Virus record (IMG/VR): IMGVR_UViG_3300044974_001280
Span: 166,446 to 230,445 of that record
Source: a virus
DNA length: 64,000 nucleotides
Reading direction: 5' to 3' (one strand)
The number at the start of each line of letters is the position of its first letter. The first letter of the stretch is position 1. The notes beneath the pieces were generated by a model. It was not told where the DNA came from, did no database searches, and saw only the letters and a list, made by a program, of their open reading frames with translations. Positions 2,452 through 57,662 of this stretch are shown here, in pieces. A program made the position numbers and the translations under genes.

Positions 2452-2891
2452 GGGGCTGAAAGGAATCGACTGGAGGCATAAGTTCTTTGACATGATGCAG
2501 GCGGTGCTAGCTTTGGAAGCACCTAAATATCCTAAGTACTTCTTAAATGGCGAAAATCCATTTTTTGCTTTGGCTGGACTAGGTTCAGCGGAGCCGGTTG
2601 AAGTTGCCTTGGCAGCCTAAACCTCGGGGGGTGACACCCAGGAACAGAAAGTCACGAGGGTGGGAAAAAGGGTTAACAGTACCACACAATCCGTCGATCC
2701 TCAGTAACCCTGCGGGCTCCGGTCCAATACCCTTCAGATCGCTGTAGGGATCGATGATGTGGATTATCTCCTATCACAGTCAAAAACTAGGAGGTAAAGA
2801 TTTGTCTGTTTAGAAAAATGGACTAAGCCTGTGAACGAGTTTCATGGAATTACCTAGCAGGACGGCGGTTCGAATCCGCCCAGCTCCACCA
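2452..2891 (+). ncRNA. ssrA: transfer-messenger RNA (tmRNA)
   Basis: The 5' end GGGGCTG pairs with CAGCTCC at 2881-2887 to form a seven-pair acceptor stem with one G-T pair, and a discriminator A and CCA are encoded at the 3' end. A perfect T arm (GGCGG TTCGAAT CCGCC) precedes it. The internal reading frame most likely resumes at GGC 2549 and ends at TAA 2618-2620, giving a 23-residue tag that starts GENPFFALAG and ends VEVALAA. GEN starts and ALAA ends are typical of Bacteroidetes tags. It rescues stalled ribosomes and marks the released protein for Clp proteolysis. At about 440 bases it is longer than most. The resume codon is inferred from the tag pattern. Confidence 0.93.
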
Positions 2892-7761: not shown

Positions 7762-8538
7762 TTGAAAACATTTCAAAAGCCCTCACAAGCCATCAAGTGG
7801 GCTAAGGAAAAATTGATCGATCACGGATATGTCGTACAGACCGAGAGATGGCAGGGTATACCTTCCCCTGACGACATGTGGGAAACCTTAAATACTTCTT
7901 TCTCTATGTTTGTCCCCCACACACTCGAAGAACTACGTGATGAGGTCAGACCTAATCTTCCCTGGGCGGACGATCATTTTGAAGAAAGAATCGGGGGCCA
8001 GCCGCTGAATCCACCTCCTTCTAACGAATGGTGGCCTTTCAACCAAAAGAAGAATTCCCAATTCAAAACAGAGGAGAAATTTTCTCACACTTATCCAGAA
8101 AGACTCTGGCCTAAATTTGCATCAGAAGAACCCAATTCGACCATGTTTGGCATTAGGTACAACTACGGTGACTTTGGTGATGTGATTGATTTGTTGGCAA
8201 GAGAACCTTTCACTAGACAGGCTTTTCTGCCCCTGTGGTTCCCGGAAGACACTGGATCTGTCCACGGGGAACGAGTTCCTTGTACAATCGGCTATCATTT
8301 TATGAGAAGAGCGGATTATCTACACATCGTGTATTACATCAGGTCCTGTGACTATCTCCGCCACTTTAGAGACGATATCTATATGGCTTGTCGGAAAGTT
8401 TTTTGGGTTCTAGAAAAATTGAGGGAAAGAAATCCCGAATCCTGGGGCGAGGTTAAACCTGGATTTTTTACCATGCACATCACTTCTTTGCATTGTTTCA
8501 ATAAGGAGAAAGAAGTTCTAAGACAAAATAATAAATAA
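7762..8538 (+). CDS. divergent thymidylate synthase/pyrimidine hydroxymethylase-like protein
   Basis: 258 residues from a TTG start. The segment TRQAFLPLWFPED, then VPCTIGYHF, then YYIRSCDYLRHFRDDIYMA lines up with the thymidylate synthase core: SRR, PPCH with the catalytic cysteine, and RSxDxxLGLPFN. Cysteine is kept, but the PPCH and GLPFN strings are changed to VPCT and HFRDD. It is therefore a distant superfamily member that might methylate or hydroxymethylate a pyrimidine nucleotide. A separate, canonical but split thymidylate synthase lies at 53.6-55.8 kb. That is consistent with this one making a modified base rather than dTMP, but this is inference. Confidence 0.68.
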   Translation: MKTFQKPSQAIKWAKEKLIDHGYVVQTERWQGIPSPDDMWETLNTSFSMFVPHTLEELRDEVRPNLPWADDHFEERIGGQPLNPPPSNEWWPFNQKKNSQFKTEEKFSHTYPERLWPKFASEEPNSTMFGIRYNYGDFGDVIDLLAREPFTRQAFLPLWFPEDTGSVHGERVPCTIGYHFMRRADYLHIVYYIRSCDYLRHFRDDIYMACRKVFWVLEKLRERNPESWGEVKPGFFTMHITSLHCFNKEKEVLRQNNK

Positions 8539-36166: not shown

Positions 36167-36298
36167 AGTCAGGTGGCGGAATGGTAGAAGCAAGTAAGCT
36201 AAAGCTGTGGGGGATGTTGCAGGAGAGACTCAAGAGACCGAAAGGTGTTATTCTCAAAGGACTCAACCCACGTACAGGTTCGAATCCTGTCCTGACTA
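36167..36298 (+). tRNA. tRNA-Leu-like RNA with oversized middle region
   Basis: AGTCAGG pairs with CCTGACT. TGGCGGAATGGTAGAAGCA closely matches the D-arm of leucine tRNAs (one G-A mismatch), and ACAGG TTCGAAT CCTGT is a perfect canonical T arm. The region between D and T arms is about 87 bases, some 45 more than a normal leucine tRNA, and includes a GCAA...TTGC pairing and an ACC GAAA GGT hairpin. The anticodon cannot be assigned with confidence. It could hold an intron, an insertion or a non-tRNA function. CCA is not encoded. Confidence 0.55.
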
Positions 36299-50090: not shown

Positions 50091-50465
50091 ATGAAACTAT
50101 ACACAAAAGAGATGTTTTTAACTGCCGCTGAAAAATGCGAGGTGTCAATGATAGACGCAAAACACATCATGCAATACATTGACGAGTATGTAACCCCTAT
50201 TGAATTGCCCACTATGAGCAATAACGAAACACACCCAGACGATTTTATTCATGGCAAATTAACCAAGCGCGAGTACTTTGCTTCTATTATGCCGGTGGAT
50301 GATTATACCTATGACACGGTTAGGCCGTTAATGGATTCAGATATTCCGCGTTCTCCTGATTTAGAAAGAATGAAATGGTGGATGCTTGTAGAGGCAAAAA
50401 TTAAAGTAATGAAAGCGGATGCACTAATTAAAGCACTAACCAATGAACACGCCAGTAAGTTTTGA
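50091..50465 (+). CDS. MKLYTKE-type small protein
   Basis: 124 residues, MKLYTKEMFLTAAEK opening, VTPIELPT as in 44922 and an acidic helical C-terminus. The last 23 bases overlap the start of family copy 2. Confidence 0.58.
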   Translation: MKLYTKEMFLTAAEKCEVSMIDAKHIMQYIDEYVTPIELPTMSNNETHPDDFIHGKLTKREYFASIMPVDDYTYDTVRPLMDSDIPRSPDLERMKWWMLVEAKIKVMKADALIKALTNEHASKF

Positions 50466-50829
50466 GATAGCAAAGTTGCTAAAAGAGAAAGGGTTTGATA
50501 TACCATGTTGGAGTTATTATTCATCTTTAAATCTTTATACTTTTGAACTTGGAGATTGGAATAATCATACTATTGGAGATACATCTATGCATAAAAGAAA
50601 TGCTGGATATTACTCAGCACCAACCATTGCAGAAGTTGTGATGTGGTTGTATGAGAAACATGGGATTTGGACTGTAGTGAATGTGAACATTATGGGGTCT
50701 TGGTATTTTGAACATTTTGATTTGAAAAAGAAAAGGAATGCTGAATTTAAACCTACAGATACACACTATAATTCACCAACAGAAGCACACGAAGCGGCTA
50801 TTGAATACACGCTAAATAATTTAATATGA
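50443..50829 (+). CDS. NTPVSFEIAKLL-family protein, copy 2
   Basis: 128 residues. The start is DNA-identical to copy 1 for over 40 bases. The C-terminal part, including ATTTGGACTGTAGTGAATG, is nearly identical to the 51257 copy for about 180 bases, so the array has been shuffled by recombination. Overlaps copy 3 by four bases. Confidence 0.72.
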   Translation: MNTPVSFEIAKLLKEKGFDIPCWSYYSSLNLYTFELGDWNNHTIGDTSMHKRNAGYYSAPTIAEVVMWLYEKHGIWTVVNVNIMGSWYFEHFDLKKKRNAEFKPTDTHYNSPTEAHEAAIEYTLNNLI

Positions 50830-51260
50830 ACACTGAAGTAAATTTTGAAATTGCAAAACTCCTAAAAGAAAAAGGATTTTCTTGGGAATGTCGTCACTTT
50901 TATCGCAAAAGTAAGTACGATAAAGAATTTTATTTAACAACAGGTACAGAATATGAATCCGATAAAGATTGTATTTGGGATTGGAACTTGAATGGTGGTA
51001 AATCAGGTATGCTTTTAAAAAAAATTCCATACCCGAATGATGATAATGCAATCTACTACTCAGCACCAACCATTGCAGAAGTTGTGATGTGGTTGTATGA
51101 GAAACATGGGATTTGGATTTATGCACATAGGATAGACCAAAAAGAATTTTATTGGTCTATTGATACTGATAAAAAAGAGTTTACATCAGGAGAAAATTTC
51201 AAAACACCAACAGAAGCATACGAAGCAGCTATTGAGTACACGCTAAATAATTTAATATGA
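50826..51260 (+). CDS. NTPVSFEIAKLL-family protein, copy 3
   Basis: 144 residues, the longest of the compact copies. It keeps APTIAEVVMWLYEKHGIW and TPTEAYEAAIEYTLNNLI, but the middle differs from copy 2, so central segments vary while both ends are conserved. Overlaps both neighbours by four bases. Confidence 0.72.
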   Translation: MNTEVNFEIAKLLKEKGFSWECRHFYRKSKYDKEFYLTTGTEYESDKDCIWDWNLNGGKSGMLLKKIPYPNDDNAIYYSAPTIAEVVMWLYEKHGIWIYAHRIDQKEFYWSIDTDKKEFTSGENFKTPTEAYEAAIEYTLNNLI

Positions 51261-51529
51261 ACACACCAGTAAAATTTGAAATTGCTGAAATTCTGTTTAA
51301 AAAACATGGAGTATTATTGTCAACTATATCAGACGTAGTAATGTGGTTGTATGAGAAGCATGGGATTTGGACTGTAGTGAATGTGAACATTATGGGGTCT
51401 TGGTATTTTGAGCATTTTAATTTGAAAGAGAAGAGGAATGCTGAATTTAAACCTACAGACACACACTATGATTCACCAACAGAAGCATATGAAGCAGCTA
51501 TTGAATATACTTTAAAAAACTTGTTATGA
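51257..51529 (+). CDS. NTPVSFEIAKLL-family protein, copy 4 (shortened)
   Basis: 90 residues. It keeps the family start (NTPVKFEIAEILFKKHG) and the end shared with copy 2, but lacks about 40 central residues. Its final codons (EYTLKNLL) match copy 1 rather than copy 2, a mosaic pattern. Confidence 0.68.
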   Translation: MNTPVKFEIAEILFKKHGVLLSTISDVVMWLYEKHGIWTVVNVNIMGSWYFEHFNLKEKRNAEFKPTDTHYDSPTEAYEAAIEYTLKNLL

Positions 51530-53453: not shown

Positions 53454-53642
53454 ATGAATAACACAAAATTTAAAGTAGGAGATAAAGCGTGGAAACCGAA
53501 AGGATATAAATTTCCTTGCACAATTGTATCCGTATTCACAACAATAAAAGGTGAAATTAGATTAGTAGCCGAAATGGATGAATATGGATTATTACACATT
53601 TTTAACGAACAACAATTAGAACATTATGAACAACCTCGATAA
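53454..53642 (+). CDS. small SH3-like protein of unknown function
   Basis: 62 residues. [20 protein letters not shown] then a valine-rich strand suggests a small SH3-like barrel similar in style to 29090. It overlaps the start of the thymidylate synthase N-part by 17 bases. Confidence 0.6.
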
Positions 53643-53943
53643 ACAGTATCAATCACTACTCCAAGATATATTAGATAATGGAGTGGAAAAGAAAGATAGA
53701 ACAGGTACTGGTACTATTTCAGTATTTGGTAGACAAATCCGTCATAAAATGAGTGAAGGGTTTTCACTTCTTACAACCAAGAAAATGGCGTGGAAGTCAA
53801 TATGTACAGAATTACTTTGGTTTTTAAGAGGCGATACATCAATAGAGTATCTTCTTAAAAATGACTGTAACATTTGGACGGGGGATGCTTATCAAGCATA
53901 CCTAAAAGAATGTGAGAAGTTAAAGAAAGATGAGGAAAAATAA
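53626..53943 (+). CDS. thyA: thymidylate synthase, N-terminal part (split gene)
   Basis: 105 residues holding RTGTGT with the dUMP-phosphate arginine (R25), [31 protein letters not shown] and NIWTGDAY, the first third of a normal thymidylate synthase. It then stops after DEEK. The catalytic cysteine is missing here and is found in the second part at 54952. The two polypeptides would have to associate to work. Confidence 0.92.
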
Positions 53944-54954
53944 TGACTTTTGTTGGTTTTTAGATATTTATTATAAAAGAAACCAAAATGTGTCTAAAAA
54001 CTAAAATTGAAACAACCTTGTGTGTTATAAAAAATAATGAGTATAAAATATTGTCTCAAAAATTAAGAGTAATTGAATCATCACTTAAACAGGATATTAT
54101 TGATAGTACTCAATATCTAACTATTTACAATCCTAAATTGGTTGATAGGATAAGGTATATCTTGAAAGATAGAAACTCCGTTAATACTTGCTTCCATTGT
54201 GGTAACCCAATTATTGATTTGAATAGAAAATTTTGTTCTGCAAAGTGTAATAACAATTCGGAACTAACTAAAAATAAATTTAGAGAAAGATATAATAGTT
54301 TATCGGAAACAGATAAAATCATAAGAAATAATAAAAGACGTAAAACTGTTAATGAAAAATACGGTGGTTATACTTTACAAAGTCCTGAACTAAAAAAGAA
54401 AATTAAATCAACTATGATTAAAAAATATGGTGTTGAACATTCTTTTCATAGTGATGCAATAAAACAAAAAGCGTTAAATACTTGGATTAAAAAGTATGGT
54501 GTTGACAACCCGTTTAAATCTCACAGTATAAAAGAGAAAATAAAGCAAGTATTAAAAGATAAATACGGGGTTAATAATTCCGCTAATATTAACTCGGAAA
54601 ATAGAATTGGTAATGGTATTAAAACAAAAATCGAAAGAGGATGGATAATACCTGATGAGTTTTTGTCGGATTACCAAATTTATAGAAAAAAAGTTAAACG
54701 ATTAACTGAAACAACATATAAAATGTATAAAAACATTATAAACCCAAATAATTTAGAAAGAGTAACAAATGGAAAAATTGGGTTCCAATTAGACCACAAA
54801 TACTCAATAATTGAAGGATTTTTGAATAATGTAGAACCTGAAATTATTAGTCATCACTGTAATCTACAAATGATAGAATGGAGTAGTAATAGAACTAAAA
54901 GTAAAAGATGTGATATTGATTTAGAACAATTAAAAAATGAAATAAAAAGTTATG
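53941..54954 (+). mobile_element. homing-endonuclease insertion within thymidylate synthase
   Basis: From the stop codon of the N-part to the ATG of the C-part. Removing it joins DEEK to NKEHLHPDGRPYT in frame, giving a continuous enzyme. The insert carries its own weak promoter-like stretch (GATATTTATTATAA) and one endonuclease gene, with only 44 and minus 8 bases of non-coding flank, too little for a self-splicing intron. Confidence 0.75.
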
Positions 54955-54959
54955 AATAA
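53988..54959 (+). CDS. HNH-type homing endonuclease
   Basis: 323 residues. A zinc-finger-like CFHCGNPIIDLNRKFCSAKC (C68, C71, C83, C87) is followed by repeated YGVxNxF/S units (KKYGVEHSFHSDAIKQ and KKYGVDNPFKSHSIKE), DNA-binding repeats known from phage endonucleases. The C-terminal FQLDHKYSIIEGF, HHCNLQMI and SSNRTKSK resemble an HNH site. It overlaps the thymidylate synthase C-part start by eight bases. Confidence 0.82.
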   Translation: MCLKTKIETTLCVIKNNEYKILSQKLRVIESSLKQDIIDSTQYLTIYNPKLVDRIRYILKDRNSVNTCFHCGNPIIDLNRKFCSAKCNNNSELTKNKFRERYNSLSETDKIIRNNKRRKTVNEKYGGYTLQSPELKKKIKSTMIKKYGVEHSFHSDAIKQKALNTWIKKYGVDNPFKSHSIKEKIKQVLKDKYGVNNSANINSENRIGNGIKTKIERGWIIPDEFLSDYQIYRKKVKRLTETTYKMYKNIINPNNLERVTNGKIGFQLDHKYSIIEGFLNNVEPEIISHHCNLQMIEWSSNRTKSKRCDIDLEQLKNEIKSYE

Positions 54960-55752
54960 AGAACACTTACACCCAGATGGAAGACCATACACCCAAGAAG
55001 AATTCATCAACAAAATCAAAACAGATGATGAGTTTGCTAAGAAGTGGGGTGATTTGGGACCAATTTATGGTAAACAGTGGAGAAAATGGAAAACCGAAGT
55101 TGCTATTCCAACAACATTAAAAATTGATGATGGTGATGATATTGAACCCTTATATGTAAAAGGAACACAGTATATTGACCAAATCCAAAACCTAATCAAC
55201 GACCTTAAAACAAATCCTGATAGTAGGAGATTAATGGTTTCGGCTTGGAATGTAGGTGAATTAGACCAAATGGTTCTCCCACCTTGTCATTATGGATTTC
55301 AAGTTTATACAAGAGAGTTAAGTTATGAAGAACGGTGTAATATATTTCAATCAACAGAAAGATTTAAAATGGAAACCCGAGAACATATTAAAGAGTTAAA
55401 TATTAAAATAATGAATGAAGCCGAAGTTCCAACCAGAGCAATCTCTCTAATGTGGAATCAACGCTCAGTAGATACATTCTTGGGTTTACCATTCAACATT
55501 GCTTCTTATGGATTATTATTGGAAATGATTGCAGATGAAGTACAAATGATACCTGATGAATTGATTGGTAATTTAGGAGATACACATTTGTATTTAAATC
55601 ATATTGAACAAGCAAAAGAGCAAATAAAAAGAGAACCATTTAGACTACCAAATGTTCACGTTAGAGATGGTATCGAATCATTTATGCCAGGAGATATTAT
55701 TTTAGAAAATTATGTATCACATCCAACAATTAAAGCGCCCCTGTCCAATTGA
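54952..55752 (+). CDS. thyA: thymidylate synthase, C-terminal part (split gene)
   Basis: 266 residues. WGDLGPIYGKQWR, DSRRLMVSAWN, LPPCHYGFQ with catalytic C112, QRSVDTFLGLPFNIASY and GDTHLYLNH are all intact, ending in HPTIKAPLSN. The order and residues are those of a complete enzyme from about its second third. Together with the N-part it would convert dUMP to dTMP with methylene-tetrahydrofolate. Confidence 0.94.
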   Translation: MNKEHLHPDGRPYTQEEFINKIKTDDEFAKKWGDLGPIYGKQWRKWKTEVAIPTTLKIDDGDDIEPLYVKGTQYIDQIQNLINDLKTNPDSRRLMVSAWNVGELDQMVLPPCHYGFQVYTRELSYEERCNIFQSTERFKMETREHIKELNIKIMNEAEVPTRAISLMWNQRSVDTFLGLPFNIASYGLLLEMIADEVQMIPDELIGNLGDTHLYLNHIEQAKEQIKREPFRLPNVHVRDGIESFMPGDIILENYVSHPTIKAPLSN

Positions 55753-55797: not shown

Positions 55798-55805
55798 TAT
55801 ATTTA
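55798..55805 (+). promoter_or_regulatory. host-type -7 promoter box (TATATTTA)
   Basis: Lies 18 bases before the ATG of the GIY-YIG gene, with an A-rich leader. Confidence 0.45.
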
Positions 55806-55823
55806 TACCAAAAGAAATAATAT

Positions 55824-56481
55824 ATGGCAGTTGTTTATTTACACAAAAAGAAAAATACTAATGAAGTTTTTTATGTTGGGATTGGCCTTTATGAAGAAAG
55901 AGCTTATTCTTATAGAAATAGAAACATACATTGGAAAAACGTTGTTGCTAAATATGGATATGATGTTGAAATTATTGAATCGGATATTGAATGGGAAGGT
56001 GCATGTGACACTGAAAAATATTTAATTCAAAAATATGGTAGAGATATGTTGACAAATATGACAGATGGGGGTGAGGGGTTATTCAATCCATCAGATGAAG
56101 TTAGAGAAAAGTTAAGATACGCAAGAACAGAAGAGCAAAAACAAAAATTAAGAGAATATCAAATTGGGGTAACGCAATCCGAAGAAACAATACAAAAAAG
56201 AATATCACATGGATTTCATAAATCTGATGAGTATAGATATAAAATGAGCATTGCATTATCAGGTGATAATAATCCAATGAAAAAAGGAGAGAATAGAGAA
56301 AAATTAAGGAAACCAAAACCACCAAGAACAAAAGAACATAGTAACAAAATAAGTGAAACCAAAAAAGGGAAAACCTACATGGAACAAAGGTAAAACTTTA
56401 GAAAAATTTGTTTGTGATATTTGTAGCAAACAAATTGGTGGGTATGGTAATCTAGTACAACACAAAAAGAAACATTTATGA
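55824..56481 (+). pseudogene. GIY-YIG homing endonuclease with frameshift
   Basis: The first 189 residues have VVYLHKKKNTNEVFYVGIG (GIY-YIG core), ACDTEKYLI and NMTDGGEGL, then repeated basic NUMOD3-like segments. The frame stops at 56393. One A too many at 56370-56373 would explain this: deleting it continues as KKGKPTWNKGKTLEKFVCDIC and ends HKKKHL at 56481, adding a zinc-finger-like end. This may be an assembly error, slippage or inactivation. Confidence 0.8.
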
Positions 56482-57092: not shown

Positions 57093-57662
57093 ATGAGCAC
57101 AACATCACACGCAAAATTTGAATTAGAATTAGCAGGCTTCTTTGGAGAAGATTCTGACTATGGAGGAGCCATCGGAGAGGCAGTTATGGAACTAATGGAG
57201 GTATTTGAAAAACAAGGACACTCAGGTGGTTCAGCACCGATTGTAGCCTCTTTATTTCACAAATTAGCTAACTACAAACCACTGGGGCCTATTACAGGTA
57301 AAGATGAAGAGTGGGGAAATGTTAGTGATTTAGCAGGTAAACCTTGGTATCAAAACAAAAGAGAGGGTGGATTGTTTAAGGATAAGGATGGTAGGGTTAC
57401 ATATAATGACGCTATTATCAAAAGATGTCCTAATGGAACAACTTGGTCAGGACCTATTTACATGACTCGAGAGGATGCTATCAACAATACAAACCGATTT
57501 CATAGTTCTTTGGAAATTAAAGGATTTCCATTTACACCAAAAACATTTTACATTGATGTGTTGGAGGAAGAAATTAAAAAAGATGATTGGATTATGTGGG
57601 TAAAAGACCCAAAACAATTGGATGAAGTATGGGAGTATTACAAAAAACCTGATTTTTTATGA
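57093..57662 (+). CDS. protein of unknown function
   Basis: 189 residues: a helical N-terminus ending KQGHSGGSAPIVASLF, then an aromatic, beta-rich part (NGTTWSGPIYM). It looks like a conserved accessory phage protein, but no function is known to me. Overlaps the next gene by four bases. Confidence 0.65.
   Translation: MSTTSHAKFELELAGFFGEDSDYGGAIGEAVMELMEVFEKQGHSGGSAPIVASLFHKLANYKPLGPITGKDEEWGNVSDLAGKPWYQNKREGGLFKDKDGRVTYNDAIIKRCPNGTTWSGPIYMTREDAINNTNRFHSSLEIKGFPFTPKTFYIDVLEEEIKKDDWIMWVKDPKQLDEVWEYYKKPDFL

Follow-up and report, generated by a model that had tools for sequence, protein, structure and literature searches.

The gene (thyA) for thymidylate synthase, an essential enzyme in the making of DNA, was found in two parts in the analysed virus, a large bacteriophage, with a homing-endonuclease gene between them. 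Our reading, to which we assign a probability of about 0.85, is that thyA was split by a free-standing homing endonuclease in a variable loop, that tail, promoter-like motif, nuclease, and head form one mobile unit, and that the two chains make up the enzyme in trans.

Organization of the thyA locus

The DNA analysed (the window, 64,000 nucleotides) corresponds to positions 166446–230445 of a 230,445-base virus record (G000:C1). The following features could be assigned at and next to the split gene.

53626–53943 (+): thyA N-part, 105 aa, covering ThyA profile positions 1–90, with DRTGTGT, ELLWFL, and NIW
53881–53943 (+): tail, the last 20 codons and stop of the thyA N-part, used for DNA comparison with other cassettes
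53964–53978 (+): promoter-like motif ATATTTATNNNAAAA, copy 1, directly 5' of the endonuclease ATG
53988–54959 (+): HNH-like/DUF7487 homing-endonuclease ORF, 323 aa, assigned by ORF and family matches
54952–55752 (+): thyA C-part, 266 aa, covering ThyA profile positions 76–265, with DSRR, PPCH, NQRSVDT, LPFNIASY, and GDTHLY
54952–55005 (+): head, the first 18 codons of the thyA C-part, common to split loci with all three endonuclease kinds
55799–55813 (+): promoter-like motif ATATTTATNNNAAAA, copy 2, 5' of the downstream endonuclease ORF
55824–56393 (+): second endonuclease-like ORF (NUMOD3; PHROG 314 homing endonuclease), a neighbouring element outside the split itself

The N-part, the endonuclease ORF, and the C-part share one direction (+). 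The original prediction of a thyA divided by a homing-endonuclease gene was borne out, as two cistrons (53626–53943 and 54952–55752) enclose the ORF at 53988–54959. It had further described an N-part with its own stop and a C-part with its own ATG, and the two ORFs end at 53943 and begin at 54952, respectively; an own stop and an own start were likewise present in all split loci examined. The C-part protein begins MNKEHLHPDGRPYTQEEF, and its ATG overlaps the stop of the endonuclease ORF by 8 nt (ATGAATAA). The Pfam profile PF00303 matched the N-part over profile positions 1–90 (E = 1.3e-30) and the C-part over positions 76–265 (E = 2.6e-63), so that both parts together represent a whole ThyA.

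Two points of the prediction stood only in part. Removal of the insert was said to restore one frame, and the 1011 nt from the N-part stop to the C-part ATG are indeed divisible by three; however, this is no general property of the split relatives, as the corresponding distance was divisible by three in 13 of 20 split loci while the parts lay in different frames in 7 of 20. The in-frame spacing in the window therefore needs no functional explanation, and the restoration of the frame is a coincidence. The insert had also been equated with the endonuclease gene. An endonuclease ORF is present, but the mobile unit is wider, and coding sequence of the tail and the head travels along with it.

The ORF between the two parts could be identified as a homing endonuclease because of its match to PHROG 3339 'homing endonuclease' (E = 3e-17), its F-LimIII-type relatives, and its invariant LDH...N...N (HNH-like) C-terminus. 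It also matched DUF7487 in Pfam (E = 6e-16) and contains a zinc-binding-like CxxC...CxxxC stretch. The structure prediction of the endonuclease reached a pLDDT of 37 and was discarded. A close cassette was not found in annotated phage records, where the best endonuclease matches were below 60% identity.

Recurrence among related phages

A total of 130 distinct related thymidylate synthase (TS) sequences from viral contigs consisted of 110 uninterrupted and 20 split sequences including the window; the relatives were ranked by similarity to the window TS, and 20 of 130 is no frequency. All 20 split sequences, two of which (L005 and L085) are almost one sequence, were broken in one and the same loop. 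The three ORFs were present at 100% protein identity in two IMG/VR contigs from other samples, besides some 17 further, non-identical split loci. The repetition of the arrangement in independent contigs led to the rejection of an assembly artefact.

Three kinds of endonuclease occupied the split, and all of them were accompanied by a tail closing the N-chain and by a head with a start codon for the C-chain. The HNH-like/DUF7487 kind (PHROG 3339) was seen in 3 of the 20 split sequences, the window included. The most frequent was a GIY-YIG-like kind (GIY-1; 14 of 20), which begins METKYYLYIKTSPLGLKYLGKTT and carries NUMOD1, its catalytic motif being read by eye while the Pfam GIY-YIG profile gave no score. 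The remaining three sequences carried a GIY-YIG kind matching PF01541 and PHROG 314 (GIY-2). On another contig (L182:2476-4000), a GIY-1-like endonuclease ORF was observed directly 5' of an ORF that by eye resembles a different, divergent thymidylate synthase.

Site of the break

A search for uninterrupted homologues had been proposed for locating the insert, and the insertion site could be fixed in this way using the 110 distinct intact relatives. In these, the break region is a hypervariable stretch between GDAYKNY and TQEEFINKIKTDDEFAKKWGELGPIYG, with a native loop length of 13–65 residues as measured by a simple pattern. The loop was mapped on an AlphaFold model of one uninterrupted relative, L048 (pLDDT 83, pTM 0.85), whose best PDB matches were the thymidylate synthases of L. 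casei and E. faecalis (TM about 0.80–0.88). In this predicted structure the break is the loop between helices 85–95 and 106–115, presumably on the protein surface. It is the small-domain insertion whose length differs between the E. coli and L. casei enzymes, and alignments agree with a break at that insertion.

Apart from the break, variable RELSxEER...(I/V)PTR inserts were observed in the TS of the window (55312–55450, +) and of L130, L068, L086, and L177, where they follow CHYGFQVYT, KEQIG, or both. The occurrence of a like peptide element at two sites of one TS protein suggests exchangeable loop modules.

Cassette mobility and shared scaffold

Pairs of split loci demonstrated cassettes far more alike than the gene around them. 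The cassettes of L068 and L130 were 99.5% identical over 1001 nt, compared to 58% in the sequence 5' of them and 60% in the 200 nt that follow. Those of L090 and L091 were 94.1% identical over 871 nt against 73% and 67% in the adjoining sequence, and the DNA up- and downstream of thyA was unrelated in these two. For the HNH kind, L039 and L087 shared 90% identity over 1067 nt, compared to 67% and 48% in the adjoining sequence. The split thyAs were not monophyletic (AU p = 1.1e-5) when C-terminal columns away from the cassette were used, and the split/intact label changed 13 times on the tree, at least 7 of the changes being forced by supported branches, although recombination within thyA blurs such trees. 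Lateral movement is indicated by the cassette identity far above flank identity together with the AU test, which at the level of sequence show transfer into an allelic site. The similarity continued on both sides of the endonuclease, into the N-part and into the head of the C-part, as would be expected from repair with co-conversion.

The DNA of the window head was 85–92% identical to the heads of L039 and L087 (HNH), L068 and L130 (GIY-1), and L004 (GIY-2). This head was found in none of the 110 intact genes, and a weakly similar tail in only two of them. The window tail was 79–83% identical to most GIY-1 tails and 68–71% identical to those of the two other HNH loci at the DNA level. The likeness of heads and tails across endonuclease kinds suggests that endonucleases were probably exchanged within an already split scaffold. 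Among the loci compared, no split copy was found that had the tail and the head in the absence of an endonuclease. Translational coupling of the C-chain to the endonuclease is suggested by the position of the C-part start, which overlaps with the end of the endonuclease ORF (8 nt in the HNH kind, mostly 14 nt in GIY-1) or lies no more than 14 nt beyond it.

State of the two enzyme parts

The catalytic residues R21, E58, W80, R126/R127, C146, R166/D169, N177, and H207 (E. coli numbering) were present across both parts. The expectation that they are all kept thus agreed with the motif check, the motifs being shared between the two chains. Profile searches of the 230-kb record revealed no other ThyA above the cut-off and no ThyX; a third PF00303 match (window 8173–8358) was rejected as a second TS at 17.7 bits against a cut-off of 24.3 bits. 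Relatives of the N-part in cellular genomes were bacterial thymidylate synthases, mostly of Bacteroidota, with 45–66% identity. A working two-chain thymidylate synthase is the most likely state, as judged indirectly from the motifs and from the pN/pS values given below.

Alternative explanations

The insert could be spliced out as a group I or II intron with an endonuclease, as in T4 td, to give one protein, and T4 td and B. mojavensis thyA are generally known to carry intron endonucleases of such a kind. Against this, only 37–48 nt lie between the N-part stop and the endonuclease ATG in the split loci, and none or a few nt follow the endonuclease stop, so the flanks are too short for an intron, as had been argued originally. 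No intron family match was obtained at E values up to 1 in six split loci or at Rfam gathering scores in the window, and separate stops and starts delimit the two parts in every locus examined. An intron was rejected on these grounds, and splicing is regarded as highly improbable. Joining after translation by an intein or split intein deserves still less weight and is close to negligible. Endonucleases lying between split inteins have been described in 'fractured genes' (Dassa et al. 2009, as cited in PMC10448857 and PMC3653736), but Pfam gave no intein domain in any part, and the tail (about 20 residues) and the head (18 residues) are too short for this role, being not longer than the native loop of 13–65 residues.

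If the parts remain separate, the split thyA might be a decaying pseudogene, with the enzyme inactivated and the phage relying on that of its host. In L177 the DRTGTGT motif is altered (ETRNGS), so some split copies may be inactive, and the two-chain activity is itself something we infer. However, no split locus long enough to judge had a frameshift or stop in either TS part, and the motifs were kept in nearly all. The pN/pS values of the split genes (N 0.24, C 0.42) resembled those of the intact genes (0.19 and 0.38), although most of this purifying selection may be older than the split. Among the split loci a single disabled reading frame was found, the endonuclease of L094. In the endonuclease stretch compared, L094 has an 8-bp deletion but is otherwise identical to L095; the endonuclease frame is lost there, while both TS parts are still open as far as the contig reaches. 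A pseudogene is accordingly unlikely. A single gene fission followed by vertical inheritance, with the uninterrupted genes as a separate lineage, would agree with one or a few original scaffolds, to which the tail and head common to the endonuclease kinds point. Yet split genes stand among intact ones in the AU test given above, and cassettes much more similar than the gene around them indicate a common scaffold that spread laterally, making this explanation rather less probable than the pseudogene.

Proposed mechanism

In the preferred reading, a free-standing homing endonuclease would sit in the length-variable loop of the only thymidylate synthase gene recognised in the phage. The mobile unit would consist of the tail, which supplies the C-terminus and stop of the N-chain, the promoter-like element, the endonuclease, and the head, which supplies the start codon of the C-chain. 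The endonuclease presumably cuts the uninterrupted thyA of a co-infecting phage; repair templated by the split copy, via the conserved flanks, would then put the cassette in place of the variable loop. Within the common split scaffold, HNH-like, GIY-1, and GIY-2 endonucleases would have been exchanged. The C-chain is probably translated in coupling with the endonuclease, and a working ThyA would be expected to assemble in trans from the products of the two cistrons.

A broader proposal, put forward tentatively and falling somewhat short of probable, is that of a portable gene-fission cassette. Its scaffold would enter the variable loop of many diverged thyAs and leave a stable two-chain TS; the endonucleases would replace one another, and the split would outlast endonuclease loss. 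With the C-chain under the endonuclease promoter, the assembly of the enzyme may be re-timed.

Promoter-like motif and neighbouring elements

The motif ATATTTATNNNAAAA stands 5–15 nt 5' of the endonuclease ATG in many cassettes. The 230-kb record contains exactly two copies, both of them at the thyA locus and immediately 5' of an endonuclease ORF. In related phages the motif was also found 5' of other endonucleases and of other genes at similar spacing, including an amidase-like and a holin-like ORF (by eye). The motif probably represents a phage promoter, perhaps of the late type, and likely belongs to a promoter class outside the sigma-70 consensus. Late promoters are also present at several T4 endonuclease genes (PMC2988022). 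If the motif is a promoter, the C-chain may be expressed together with the endonuclease.

The family of the second endonuclease-like ORF (55824–56393) also follows the uninterrupted thyA of L152, where the protein has 220 aa; the ORF in the window stops at 189 aa, apparently because of a frameshift close to the end. In L047, L107, and L146, intact thyA is followed by other GIY-YIG ORFs. The 3' end of thyA is therefore a second endonuclease site. On the other side of the gene, three adjoining ORFs at 50443–51529 (+) with the common modules FEIAKLLKEKGF, TIAEVVMWLYEKHGIW, and TEAYEAAIEYTLNNL form a small tandem family with mosaic members, and repeated, shuffled DNA was also seen 5' of thyA in L005, L039, L086, and L090. 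Elsewhere in the window, a Tad3-family protein (type I Thoeris inhibitor, anti-defence) was found at 57093–57662 (+; PF25185, E = 2e-35). A tmRNA match (RF00023, 72 bits) covers 440 nt at 2452–2891 (+), and a tRNA match (31.5 bits) covers 132 nt at 36167–36298 (+), perhaps with an insert or intron; ARAGORN called neither.

Comparison with known systems and significance

Intron endonucleases classically target thymidylate synthase. The gene is the target of homing endonucleases, GIY-YIG among them, in T4 td (I-TevI) and B. mojavensis (I-BmoI) as well as here (general knowledge; PMC3161791); those are splicing group I introns, whereas no intron was found in the present gene, which is read as two chains. 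A close model is Aeh1 nrdA-a/mobE/nrdA-b, a two-chain enzyme reported to be active (Friedrich et al. 2007, as described in PMC2988022 and PMC3653736), and the principle of genes in pieces by a free-standing endonuclease is known from it. The original likening to split nrdA was upheld, the endonuclease ORF lying between parts with their own start and stop, with no intron or intein and with intact homologues available. In both cases a gene of nucleotide metabolism is divided into two cistrons by the gene of a free-standing HNH endonuclease. They differ in the enzyme, and in thyA one site is shared by about 20 sequences with three endonuclease kinds and a co-moving tail and head; activity of the two chains is here what we infer.

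Gene 43 of Aeromonas phage 25 is similarly divided into 43A and 43B in association with the free-standing seg43, and the polymerase parts co-purify and are active (PMC2988022). The gene and the separating sequence are different, and a range of unrelated endonucleases at a single site was not described for it. Insertion of mobA in T4 gene 60 also splits a coding region into two polypeptides, in that case the topoisomerase large subunit (PMC2988022). Exchange of endonuclease genes at one locus resembles the replacement of mobC and mobE by SegH and Hef in T4-like phages (title of Sandegren et al. 2005, among the references of PMC2988022); the mobE site is intergenic, between nrdA and nrdB, while the present site is inside the enzyme gene. 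An earlier report of a thymidylate synthase split by a free-standing endonuclease was not found in the open-access literature, most subscription journals being outside this scope.

Earlier gene splits by free-standing homing endonucleases consist of a few single phage cases. The thyA loci provide a natural series in which one loop of one enzyme is split in about 20 sequences by three kinds of endonuclease, with more than 100 unsplit controls. Such a series makes it testable how selfish nucleases split an essential enzyme at little cost, through a tolerant loop and a stop and start carried along, and how two-chain enzymes arise. The break loop, moreover, offers a place at which thymidylate synthase, both a drug target and a selectable marker, is split in nature. 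A mobile gene-splitting cassette with interchangeable endonucleases lifts the case above a single curiosity, and it would represent a recurrent, mobile way of breaking an enzyme in two by which function is apparently not destroyed.
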